Origin: Haloprofundus salilacus
GTDB lineage: Archaea > Halobacteriota > Halobacteria > Halobacteriales > Haloferacaceae
Reading direction: 5' to 3'
NCBI RefSeq assembly: GCF_020150815.1
Contig: NZ_CP083724.1
Coordinates: 62,001-126,000, forward strand
Length of the DNA: 64,000 nucleotides
Shown: positions 5,548-42,292 of the stretch, one piece after another
Layout: each line of letters opens with the position of its first letter
Numbering within the stretch: the stretch's first letter is position 1
Position numbers and translations under genes: made by a program
Notes under the pieces: generated by a model
What the model was told of the DNA's origin: nothing
Databases searched by the model: none
Seen by the model: the letters and a program-made list of their open reading frames with translations, nothing else

Positions 5548-5958
5548 TCAATCGTTCACAGATATCGGTTCAAGGGAATGCCGTTCGGTCCAGACGCCGA
5601 GATACCAGAAGACGGGTGCGAGTTCTTTCGCCTTTTCCGTGGCGTCGTACTCAACGCGCGGCGGGATTTCGTTGTACGCAGTCCGTGTCAACAACCCAAC
5701 CCCAGTGAGTTCTCCGAGCCGATTCGAGAGCGTGTTTGGCGCGATATTAACGGCTTCTTCTAAGTCACTGAATCGCAATGGCTTGCCACTGGTGGCAAAT
5801 TGATGGAGGATCACGATGGTGTGTTTCTTCCCCAGCAGGTTGAGGAGCGAAGACATCGTTTTATTGTCTTCCTTTGCTTGTTCAGATCCGGGCGGCCGCG
5901 CTGTTTCATTCGAGAGAATCGTCTCAATGAATTCTTCAGCGTGCGATGGTTCGACCAT
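5548..5958 (-). CDS. HxlR-family winged-helix transcriptional regulator
   Basis: A 136-residue protein whose core (LLGKKHTIVILHQFATSGK, then FSDLEEAVNIAPNTLSNRL and GLLTRTAYNEIPPRVEY) matches the HxlR/DUF24 winged helix, including the EIPPRVEY wing. It lies divergent to the DUF6069/FMN-reductase operon starting at 6087, which it probably controls. HxlR proteins often respond to reactive carbonyls or redox stress (family knowledge). The intergenic region has two similar AACTTGTTTCTTC / AACTTCTAACTTG stretches that could be its sites (inference). Confidence 0.9.
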   Translation of the reverse strand: MVEPSHAEEFIETILSNETARPPGSEQAKEDNKTMSSLLNLLGKKHTIVILHQFATSGKPLRFSDLEEAVNIAPNTLSNRLGELTGVGLLTRTAYNEIPPRVEYDATEKAKELAPVFWYLGVWTERHSLEPISVND

Positions 5959-6545: not shown

Positions 6546-7147
6546 GCTCTCTCGGACGAGCCAGTCGATCATCGGGGGATGCACAGCCGCACGTCGTGGC
6601 AGTATGCGGAAGCCGACGTGAAGGAAGTCACACCCGACGAGCGCTCCAGGAAGCGCTGGCCAGCGTCGAAGCAGCTGGCGGCACAACCGAGTTGCTCGAC
6701 CTGGCGGAACTGGACCTCCCGCCGCTCAATACAGATGTCAAGGAGGCAGGAGACGGCGACGTGGTGAGACGGATGATCCGTGAGGCTGATGCGGTCATCC
6801 TCGGAACGCCCATGTATCATGGGTCGTACTCGGGCGTGTTGAAGAACGCGCTCGATTACTGCGGCTTCACCGAGTTCGAAGACACGACCGTCGGGCTCCT
6901 CGTTGTCTCGGGTGGGCCGTTCCCCACGCCGGCGCTCACGCACCTCCGCGATGTCTGCCGATCACTGAACGCCTGGGCCCTTCCATATCAGGCGGCGGTC
7001 CCGCAGGCAGGCACCGCGTTTGATGAGGACGGATTCACGGACGAGGGCCTCCGAGAGCGCGTTCGGACGCTCGGCGTGCGTGCTGTCGAGTACGCTGCAA
7101 TCGAACCGAGAGAAGTTCGAGCGGCCCAGCTTCGAGAGGTGAATTGA
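6542..7147 (+). CDS. NADPH-dependent FMN reductase
   Basis: A 201-residue flavodoxin-fold protein. It has the phosphate-binding loop CGSRREGSHTRRAL at about 22-35, and GTPMYHGSYSGVLKNALDY at about 89-107, which is the FMN-binding signature of the NADPH-dependent FMN reductase/azoreductase family. It would reduce FMN or use bound FMN to reduce quinone-like or electrophilic substrates in the cytosol. It overlaps the DUF6069 gene by four bases and is followed within 5 nt by the BNR protein gene. Confidence 0.92.
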   Translation: MSSLGRASRSSGDAQPHVVAVCGSRREGSHTRRALQEALASVEAAGGTTELLDLAELDLPPLNTDVKEAGDGDVVRRMIREADAVILGTPMYHGSYSGVLKNALDYCGFTEFEDTTVGLLVVSGGPFPTPALTHLRDVCRSLNAWALPYQAAVPQAGTAFDEDGFTDEGLRERVRTLGVRAVEYAAIEPREVRAAQLREVN

Positions 7148-7152
7148 GTAAT

Positions 7153-8130
7153 ATGACGTTATTAATCGGTACGCAGGATGGCGTCTACCGTTCTGTGAGT
7201 GGTAGGCTCGACGACGTCGAACGGGTGCTTGACTCGGGAGTGACGCTCGGCGTCCATACGTTTGAGGAGCACGGCTCGTTCGCCGCGTCGAAAACCGGTC
7301 TGTACTGCTCGGAAGATCAGGGAAAGACATGGGACCGGCTTGGAGTACCTCGGACCGAGGTGTACGCCGTTGCGGTCAGTCCCGACGGCAGTCGATTGTA
7401 CGCGGGCACACACCCGGCTCACCTGTACGTCTCGACGGACAAAGGGAGAACGTGGACGGAGCTGGAGGGGTTCCAAGAGCTTCCCTCCCGTGACCACTGG
7501 CATACCCCTCGTCATAGGGGTAAGTCGCACGTCCGAAGTCTTGGCGTCCACGCGGATGCACCGAATCGGATCGTGGCAGGCGTCGAAGTTGGCGGCGTCC
7601 ACGTCAGCGACGACGGTGGTGAGACGTGGACCGAACGACGAGGCGGGCTTGAGACAGAACGAAAGGACGATCTCCAATACGACGTTCACCATGTGCACGT
7701 TGTCACGGCCAACGAATACGTCGTCTCGTGCGGCGGTGGGCTCTTTCGAACCACTGACGCTGGCCATTCGTGGACGCGCCTCGACATGGAGTTACCTGGC
7801 CCGTACTTCCAAGAAGCGTTTTCCCATCGTGGGACGCTGTATGCCGCCGCACAAACGCTTCCACCGACTCTTCCGATGGGCAGCAGGTATAACAAACGGA
7901 GCGTGAATGCGTCACTGTTCGAATCCACGGACGGGGGAGAGACGTTCGAGAGAAAACAGTATCCCGGTGCGCCGAACGAATTCGTTTACGCCTGGACGGT
8001 AACCGACAGGCATGTACTCGCTGGAACGACAGAAGGACAGGTGATGATCCGTGAGAATGATACCTGGATCACGCTCGGACGCGTTCCGGATTGGATTCGA
8101 TCACTATCGCACGGGTACACTGATCCATGA
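7153..8130 (+). CDS. BNR/sialidase-like beta-propeller repeat protein
   Basis: A 325-residue protein with repeated Asp-box motifs (SxDxGxTW): SEDQGKTW, STDKGRTW, SDDGGETW, TTDAGHSW and STDGGETF, spaced as in a propeller of the sialidase/YCF48 type. No signal peptide is seen. ATG 7153 is chosen; a TTG at 7144 overlapping the previous stop is also possible. The propeller family includes glycosidases and non-catalytic assembly proteins, and no catalytic set can be assigned. It is a paralogue of the convergent gene at 8613-9605. Confidence 0.88.
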   Translation: MTLLIGTQDGVYRSVSGRLDDVERVLDSGVTLGVHTFEEHGSFAASKTGLYCSEDQGKTWDRLGVPRTEVYAVAVSPDGSRLYAGTHPAHLYVSTDKGRTWTELEGFQELPSRDHWHTPRHRGKSHVRSLGVHADAPNRIVAGVEVGGVHVSDDGGETWTERRGGLETERKDDLQYDVHHVHVVTANEYVVSCGGGLFRTTDAGHSWTRLDMELPGPYFQEAFSHRGTLYAAAQTLPPTLPMGSRYNKRSVNASLFESTDGGETFERKQYPGAPNEFVYAWTVTDRHVLAGTTEGQVMIRENDTWITLGRVPDWIRSLSHGYTDP

Positions 8131-8198: not shown

Positions 8199-8485
8199 AT
8201 GACAAAAACAAAAAATTCTACGTGGCTCAATGCGCTTATCGGCGCGATCGCCACTGTCGTCTTATCGGTCACTATTGTCTCACCAATCCTCGGTGGGGCA
8301 CTCGCGGGATACGTAAACGACCACGGGTCAGGTGACCCGTGGAACTCTCGCTGTTATCTTTAGAACAGGGTGACGGTGTCCGTGTGGGTGCGATTGCTGG
8401 CATTATTGCCGCATTGCCAGTACTCCTAATCGCTATAGCCATCCTAGGGCTCATTCCTGCAGCTGATGGTTTCTCTGGGATTTGA
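8199..8485 (+). pseudogene. DUF5518 membrane protein split by a 52-bp repeat
   Basis: The first part reads TWLNALIGAIATVVLSV and SPILGGALAGY, and after the repeat the frame resumes as EQGDGVRVGAIAGIIAALP and LIPAADGFSGI. Both halves match DUF5518 proteins. Removing the bases from about 8313 to 8359 restores GYLEQGDG without a gap, so the repeat is an insertion into a formerly intact gene. Without repair the product ends after 55 residues. A TATA box (TATAATG, about 8172-8178) lies 27 nt before the ATG. Confidence 0.85.
8313..8364 (+). repeat. 52-bp hairpin repeat, copy 1 of 2 (IS200/IS605-type end)
   Basis: Identical for 52 bases to 41574-41625. At 8321-8342 it contains CCACGGGTCA-GG-TGACCCGTGG, a 10-bp inverted repeat with a 2-nt centre. 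This looks like a subterminal hairpin of an IS1341-type element, or a palindrome-associated (PATE-like) MITE. No transposase is attached. It interrupts the DUF5518 gene. Confidence 0.85.
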
Positions 8486-8612: not shown

Positions 8613-9605
8613 CTATATGTCATCGGGTGCGACTTCTACCCGCCACACCTTCGGAAGCGCCGTGTCTATACGATGCCAGGTCTCACCAGAGCTGGTACTC
8701 AAGTACACAGAGCTCTCCTTCTCGTTCGCGTCGCCAACATAGATGAGAGTGGTAGGGTCTTCAGGATGGAGACGGAGGTTGTCTGCAGGCTTCGCAGTGG
8801 GTAAGCCCTCGCCAATCGCATGCCACGAGTCTCCACTATCTTCGCTTTTGTACAGTGGACTGCCTTCCTGATCCGCATAGGCATACGCGTACCTCGGAGC
8901 ATCGGCATCGAAGATAATCGAATGCAGGTACTTCCCACGAAGGGCTGGCGTTGATGCCCAACTCTCACCAGCGTCATGACTATGGAAAAGCCCACTTCCC
9001 GTTGCAGCCAGAACGCGATCTGGACCGGCTGGATCGACTGCAATGCGGTGGAGATCGTGACCGACGAGCGCATCGTGCCAAGTCTCGCCCCCATCGTGCG
9101 TGTAGATCAGCGCACCATGCTCCACGCCCGCGAAGATTCGCTCCGGACGTGCCGGATGGATAGCGAACCCGTGGATATGGCCCTCATAGAACGGTTCGTG
9201 GAAAAACGTCCACTTCGAACGGCTCGGTAACTCTTCGATACTCGTGATTTCGTCGAATGTATCACCATCATCAACGGATACGTACACCATCGGTGGCTCG
9301 GTCCCAACGTAAACGGTCTCAGGATTACTGGGGTGTTGCGCAACATCCCACACCCATCGATCTTCGAATCCGAGATCCTCGATGGTTCTTCCTGCGTCAG
9401 TTGTCCGATACAGACCCCATCCTCGGAGTCCACACCCGACGTACGCAGCTGCTGGATTCGATGGGTCGACGGCGATTCCGCGGACCGCATTGTCCCTGAC
9501 TCCGCGAGCAATAATCTCAAGCCCGCTGGGAGTAAGACGAGCCACTCGAAACCCATCCCGGGTGCCAAGGTACAGTATACACGAGTCGAATTCGAGTGAC
9601 TCCAT
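8613..9605 (-). CDS. BNR/sialidase-like beta-propeller repeat protein
   Basis: A 330-residue protein with at least five Asp-box type motifs (TTDAGRTI, SVDDGDTF, THDGGETW, SHDAGESW, SEDSGDSW, STSSGETW) on propeller blades that also carry HPSNPETVYVG and HPARPERIFAG repeats. No signal peptide or catalytic residues are evident. It shares blade order and the motif LPSR(S/D)xW with the protein at 7153-8130, so the two arose by duplication. They face each other across two gene remnants. Role is unknown; propellers often bind ligands or partners. Confidence 0.88.
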   Translation of the reverse strand: MESLEFDSCILYLGTRDGFRVARLTPSGLEIIARGVRDNAVRGIAVDPSNPAAAYVGCGLRGWGLYRTTDAGRTIEDLGFEDRWVWDVAQHPSNPETVYVGTEPPMVYVSVDDGDTFDEITSIEELPSRSKWTFFHEPFYEGHIHGFAIHPARPERIFAGVEHGALIYTHDGGETWHDALVGHDLHRIAVDPAGPDRVLAATGSGLFHSHDAGESWASTPALRGKYLHSIIFDADAPRYAYAYADQEGSPLYKSEDSGDSWHAIGEGLPTAKPADNLRLHPEDPTTLIYVGDANEKESSVYLSTSSGETWHRIDTALPKVWRVEVAPDDI

Positions 9606-41573: not shown

Positions 41574-41625
41574 GTAAACGACCACGGGTCAGGTGACCCG
41601 TGGAACTCTCGCTGTTATCTTTAGA
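41574..41625 (+). repeat. 52-bp hairpin repeat, copy 2 of 2
   Basis: Identical to 8313-8364, with the hairpin CCACGGGTCA-GG-TGACCCGTGG at 41582-41603. Its last bases overlap the stop codon of the SdpI gene at 41621. Upstream sequence differs from copy 1, so the shared unit ends sharply on that side. Confidence 0.85.
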
Positions 41626-42292
41626 GATTGGATTCCGAGCCCGAGCCCGATTGTGACTCGATCTGCTCGTAGAGATAGTATGAGTACACCAGCGTGACTC
41701 CGGCGGTCAGAAGCGCTGGGATGATGAGGAAGTACACAGCGTACTCACCGAACAGGAGACCGATCAACGCGATTACAGCAGTGAGTTTGAAAAGCCGACT
41801 CCCGAGTTCATGCGTCTGGTCCCAGACTTCGTCACTACTGAGCGTCCAGGGTGTCCGGATGCCGATGAACCAGTTACGTTTCGCGCGGCTCAGTAGGATG
41901 CCGGCATAATAGAAGAGGAGGGCGACAGCAGCCAGAACGAACAGCGTGAAGTCGAACTCGTAGCCGAGGTTGAACGCGAGAATCCCGCCGTGAAGAGTCG
42001 CCATGAACGCCGTGAAGACGACGACGAACCAGTCGTAGACGGGGCGAAACGACGTGATGTTCTCTCTGAGGGGGCCGATACGAGGAATGACAGCAAAGAG
42101 TACCAGGAGCGCAGCTGAGAGAACGGGGATGAGGGCCAGAGCCGGGGTTTTAGCCATTGTTCCATCTGGCTGCCCAGCTGCGTTCCAGTGGATCACGAGC
42201 TGCGCTGGGAGCTCTGGGGCTGCGATGACGCTCAACGCACCAGAAATGACGACGAAGAGTGCGGCGGCAGTAAACCTGTGAGTTGAGTTCAT
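41621..42292 (-). CDS. SdpI/DUF1648 family membrane protein
   Basis: A 223-residue protein with about six hydrophobic helices. The DUF1648 start (LPAQLVIHWNAAGQPDGTMA) and the C-terminal SdpI segment (AKRNWFIGIRTPWTLSSDEV, then W-D-TH) are both present. SdpI proteins give immunity to toxic peptides in Bacillus, but the archaeal roles are unknown. The stop codon lies at the edge of the 52-bp repeat, so the last few residues (SGSGSESNL) may be shaped by that insertion. Confidence 0.88.
   Translation of the reverse strand: MNSTHRFTAAALFVVISGALSVIAAPELPAQLVIHWNAAGQPDGTMAKTPALALIPVLSAALLVLFAVIPRIGPLRENITSFRPVYDWFVVVFTAFMATLHGGILAFNLGYEFDFTLFVLAAVALLFYYAGILLSRAKRNWFIGIRTPWTLSSDEVWDQTHELGSRLFKLTAVIALIGLLFGEYAVYFLIIPALLTAGVTLVYSYYLYEQIESQSGSGSESNL

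Follow-up and report, generated by a model that had tools for sequence, protein, structure and literature searches.

A 52-bp hairpin repeat of Haloprofundus salilacus combines the outer parts of both ends of an IS605-type element with a single hairpin

Introduction

In the window analyzed here (a stretch of 64,000 nucleotides of Haloprofundus salilacus, contig NZ_CP083724.1, positions 62,001 to 126,000), a DUF5518 gene on the plus strand (8199-8485; coordinates are those of the window unless another locus is named) is broken by a short repeat that forms a hairpin. This raises the question of what kind of unit was inserted, from what it is derived and whether it is able to move on its own. A sequence-only reading had regarded the repeat as a discrete mobile unit in its own right, a view that the following results modify.

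Results

The 52-mer (GTAAACGACCACGGGTCAGGTGACCCGTGGAACTCTCGCTGTTATCTTTAGA) is located at 8313-8364, and the identical sequence that had been reported at 41574 was recovered as an exact match at 41574-41625. It contains two 10-bp arms (CCACGGGTCA and TGACCCGTGG), in agreement with the hairpin already recognized, and its folding as single-stranded DNA yielded a z-score of -3.97. The 30-bp core of the repeat, with up to three mismatches, was matched in none of 100 dinucleotide shuffles. The search of the whole genome that the sequence-only reading had proposed (46 bases, up to three mismatches allowed) revealed four exact copies. Contig C2 (0.49 Mb) carries three of them, two of which lie in the window, and contig C1 (3.24 Mb) the fourth. 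The bases adjoining the repeat differ among all four copies, and alignments of one copy and its surroundings with the others stop at 52-55 bp. In the window, no known RNA family was matched at the Rfam gathering score.

As to the extent of the insert, removal of about 47 bp had been suggested to restore the DUF5518 reading frame. The frame (GYLEQGDG) is restored by taking out exactly 47 bp, but not 46, 48 or 52 bp. The joined protein of 79 aa scored 48.4 bits and covered positions 1-81 of the Pfam DUF5518 profile, compared to 30.2 bits and positions 1-46 only for the interrupted protein. A second empty site was provided by the copy in locus L002, which interrupts a tnpB gene. The joined peptide of 189 aa aligned in one piece with each of the two best named plasmids (92% coverage, 86.8% and 82.2% identity), and the DNA alignment of L002 with the tnpB genes of these two haloarchaeal plasmids contained a 47-bp gap with the same boundary as in DUF5518. 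Because both empty sites place the boundary at 47 bp, TTAGA, the last five of the shared bases, is the pre-existing target. It reads TCTAA on the minus strand and stays on one side of the insert; a target duplication was not seen. The comparison of occupied and empty sites thus yielded a clean insertion with definable ends and a target preference; the inserted length had to be corrected from 52 to 47 bp. The plasmid homologues of DUF5518 (three records) aligned over about the first half only; the empty site at the DNA level therefore rests on the tnpB copy. For the DUF5518 region, the search across the family did not reveal an orthologous site spanning the insert; neither did that of four sister genomes of the genus with the chromosomal copy. 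In L002 (G000:C2:646-3691, about 953-1860), the interrupted tnpB gene belongs to another IS605-type element, which in turn is broken, one mobile element being nested in the other.

In copy 1, the inserted 47 bp (8313-8359, minus strand) comprise a left end, a hairpin of 22 bp (8321-8342, no strand assigned) and a right end, and border on the target at 8360-8364 (minus strand). Copy 2 occupies 41574-41620 (minus strand) with its hairpin at 41582-41603 (no strand assigned) and its target at 41621-41625 (minus strand). Since the TAA of this target serves as the stop codon of an ORF encoding 223 aa (41621-42292, minus strand), the ORF, whose stop is abutted by copy 2, was left whole. The statement that the repeat is far smaller than an insertion sequence and carries no gene holds, as 47 bp are too short for a transposase gene. 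The DUF5518 gene is flanked at 7144-8130 (plus strand) and 8613-9605 (minus strand) by two genes that look related and encode repeat proteins containing SxDxGxTW-type motifs, which we take to be beta-propeller/BNR-like.

A looser search (26 bases, three mismatches) revealed a fifth place in the same genome, C1:2937883, where an IS605-type element has its left end. In this element (locus L024), a gene for a Y1 transposase (tnpA) points to the left end and tnpB runs in the opposite direction; the Pfam matches were Y1_Tnp and Cas12f1-like_TNB, respectively. The left hairpin (3900-3921 of L024) agrees in 21 of 22 bases with a second one at 5768-5789, which is followed by TCGTTTAC. With genes for a Y1 (HUH) TnpA and TnpB between hairpin ends, the element falls into the IS200/IS605 family, even though the 5′ part of its tnpA is out of frame. 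The 52-mer corresponds to the left outer part, a single hairpin, which is common to both ends, and the right outer part of an element of this type. Its right outer part (TCGTTTAC) is identical to the right end in L024, its left outer part matches the left end save three linker bases. A longer element with the linker of the four copies was not found in this genome. A second IS605-type element, at L093 3470-5094 (G000:C2:152500-160000), has different flanking repeats (CCCCTGTCTTTAGGCGGGG-like). The second Y1 tnpA gene of the genome (C2:155990) is open, overlaps tnpB and is set between these other repeats.

To read the ends, the pairing of guides and cleavage sites known from IS608 was applied. 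In IS608, the third pair joins base 4 of the guide with the last base of the site, which agrees with both ends of the element. Two of the pairs, together with the guides and sites of both ends, are given in the available part of PMC5934647, according to which the cleavage site is recognized by a guide of four bases immediately 5′ of each hairpin. Parallel pairing of the guides was considered and rejected, as the pairs stated there show another topology. For nine end types, read by eye and with a left boundary set by empty sites only for the element family of the 52-mer, all 27 of 27 guide/site pairs were Watson-Crick pairs (shuffle mean 13.7, p 2e-05; shuffle within sides p 0.00135). At no fewer than two places (G332, G313), a left end that resembles those of this family in all else reads TCTAT/AGTA instead of TCTAA/AGTT, a change that is matched in guide and site.

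By this rule, the left guide AGTT of copy 1 (8343-8346, minus strand) pairs with CTAA of the target. The terminal-only form, hereafter called scar, also holds the right cleavage site TTAC (8313-8316, minus strand), whereas the right guide AAAG is gone. In each of four fusion combinations examined, the remaining guide formed one of three pairs with the right site of the scar. The 47-bp unit hence does not possess both guides of a complete IS200/IS605 element. Since the right guide was lost with the core, a scar would be cut at its left end but poorly at its right end, and the pairing predicts that it moves poorly on its own.

The repeat is not confined to this genome. Matches within three mismatches were detected in 9 of 170 genomes of the family, and a pattern for left ends or scars matched 82 places in 47 of 392 genomes of the order. 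On the basis of the sequence to the left of the hairpin, 48 of these places were classed as scars and the remaining 34 as left ends of longer elements, where "longer" does not imply a complete element; in a few scars (e.g., G361, G420) the right part is degenerate. The right end on the tnpB side was found at 28 places in 17 of 51 chosen genomes, i.e., the 47 mentioned and four from the family search. Exact scars are present in 12 stretches of named records, including Haloquadratum walsbyi J07HQW2 (four), Halogranum, Natronomonas and Haladaptatus. Of 25 matching plasmid records, 17 span at least 80% of the 52-mer. The repeat was unmatched in the 'phages' search and its 31-base core had no exact match in viral contigs, and a virus-borne repeat was rejected on these grounds. 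Among the matches listed, there are also fused-looking forms with other outer parts, such as GTGAATTAC...AATTCTGC and GTCAACGAC...AATCCTGCC, for which reason core loss seems to be spread over more than one element family. Short elements devoid of genes, in which a left end and a right end (GTAAAGTAC...CGTTCG) are 300-460 bp apart, were observed at G081:C5:22222-22625, G351:C37:24378-24747 and G424:C6:130277-130740 and occupy an intermediate position between full element and scar. At G439:C1:2405095-2405154, a left end is flanked by TGTTTAC, not TTCTAA, and was possibly inserted beside the right end of another element.

Discussion

The repeat has the anatomy of two element ends around one hairpin, clean empty sites and a fixed target; a longer relative is present in the genome of H. 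salilacus, and counterparts exist in many others. It is probably a terminal-only PATE, i.e., an element of the IS200/IS605 family whose core was deleted by collapse between its 22-bp hairpins, and we infer that each of the copies, or its ancestor, collapsed from a longer element. An element of IS605 layout with divergent tnpA and tnpB would have entered the DNA 3′ of TCTAA, leaving the target unduplicated, and the core and one hairpin would have been lost via recombination or slippage between the near-identical hairpins of the two ends. The product would consist of the outer left end, a single hairpin and the outer right end, and this fusion would retain the left guide (AGTT for TCTAA) but drop the right one (AAAG for TTAC). 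The family and genus searches, in which each species was represented by one genome, did not reveal an orthologous pair of a full-length and a collapsed element.

The loop of the hairpin provides information on how often such a collapse may have occurred. Loop A predominates among the left ends of longer elements (30 of 34) and loop G among the right ends (25 of 28), the latter counted by eye and with a search pattern that favoured A or G at the loop. The 48 scars are divided into 25 with loop G, 21 with loop A and two others. Since crossovers to the left and to the right of the loop would yield both types, the presence of left-type and right-type loops suggests that collapse recurred. Among the six all-scar groups (same genome and linker), the loops are mixed in G098, G233 and G368 and uniform in G000, G277 and G282. 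Mixed loops are expected from separate crossovers, but could also stem from gene conversion or from one A/G exchange. The four copies of H. salilacus are identical and all contain loop A, which decides little since, with A and G about equally frequent, four alike would occur in about one of eight cases. At G098:C3:105043-105102, the loop of a scar is extended by a repetition of GGTGA, which looks like an off-register collapse junction. Of 11 groups of the same genome and linker, 10 consist either of scars only or of long forms only (4.3 expected, p 5e-05). Whole genomes were uniform no more often than by chance (9 of 20, 7.5 expected, p 0.31). The uniform groups are compatible with self-copying of scars, but likewise with entire families collapsing as they age or at the moment of insertion. 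Collapse is not automatic, since G337 contains long ends (three left and two right) which all bear loop A, and no scars.

The rival that survives best is that the terminal-only form is itself mobile, so that, following a single collapse, a TnpA acting in trans brought the 47-bp unit to its four sites. We regard this as possible, though doubtful. It is consistent with four identical copies of one loop type in a genome lacking a longer element of the same linker, and with the uniformity of the linker groups. Moreover, in the available part of PMC3119063 (Dyall-Smith et al. 2011), six strain-specific insertions of ISHwa23 in Haloquadratum are described which are all terminal-only (52 bp), and the authors suggest that the short form may move. 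On the other hand, the poor fit of the sole guide to the right cleavage site argues against autonomous scars, the only tnpA gene with such ends in this genome is broken in its 5′ part, the repeats that flank the other Y1 tnpA are of a different kind, and loop types are mixed in three of the six all-scar groups.

The latter groups (G098, G368, G233) would be explained without mobile scars if collapse was coupled to transposition, as would the strain-specific insertions of PMC3119063. In that case, copying across the two near-identical hairpins of the single-stranded moving form would often drop the core, and insertions would often land as 47-bp scars devoid of the right guide. This idea overlaps with the collapse proposed above, but appears rather improbable because G337 and G253 hold several long copies and, in the order and right-end searches, no scars.

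Very little speaks for a repeat of the REP type that owes its movement to a REP-associated TnpA and has no relation to a two-ended insertion sequence. REP sequences and REPINs are likewise short palindromes tied to Y1 transposases, and the repeat studied here is small, has one hairpin and involves this transposase family. However, its outer parts are the two defined ends of a longer element, the insert has a fixed boundary of 47 bp and a fixed target, and four copies do not amount to the high copy number of REP sequences. Marks of REP elements are a conserved tag resembling GTAG or CGTC, a tag named in the title of PMC3733652, and linkage to a REP-type TnpA. Finally, pieces of longer duplicated segments, the alternative raised by the sequence-only reading, were looked for and can be dismissed with near certainty, gene duplication being excluded by the unrelated flanks of the four copies, which share nothing past 52-55 bp.

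The collapsed element has its closest general model in IS608 and the IS200/IS605 family, with which it shares subterminal hairpins, Y1 TnpA, TnpB, guide/cleavage pairing and insertion 3′ of a short target that is kept at the left flank. What separates the 47-bp unit from these elements is the single hairpin and the lack of genes and of the right guide.

The more specific counterpart has been described for Haloquadratum walsbyi. According to the available part of PMC3119063, PATEs are IS605-type elements that were cut by repeat-mediated deletion to terminal-only forms of 52 bp; four elements are complete in one Haloquadratum strain and terminal-only in the other, and HqIRS46 constitutes a full-length/collapsed pair at the same site between strains. 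The term PATE also occurs in PMC10544981 (2023); judged by titles and the opening of abstracts, no paper on terminal-only forms other than PMC3119063 was found. Thus, instead of representing a free-standing class of repeats, the scar is a known kind of fused IS605-type ends in a new place. Like HqIRS46 and ISHwa23 in that source, it comprises IS605-type ends joined through one near-terminal palindrome within 52 bp, with a short target, no duplication and, as proposed for the scar, a core deletion mediated by a repeat (22 bp in HqIRS46).

The class known from Haloquadratum is hereby extended to many haloarchaeal genera. The present analysis contributes the boundary at 47 bp, a longer relative within the genome itself, the breadth across the order, the test based on loop types and the absence of the right guide. 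The loop type can be used as a marker to count independent collapses, and the question raised in 2011, whether the 52-bp form can move, becomes testable: failure at the right end is expected of a scar to which no right guide is supplied. Should collapse indeed be coupled to transposition, core loss would be part of the element's own life cycle, in which transposition leaves short scars. Compared to HqIRS46 and ISHwa23, to which the repeat is likened by description and not by sequence, the scars of H. salilacus occur in another genus, are accompanied by a longer tnpA-tnpB relative and have been analyzed with respect to the loss of the right guide.
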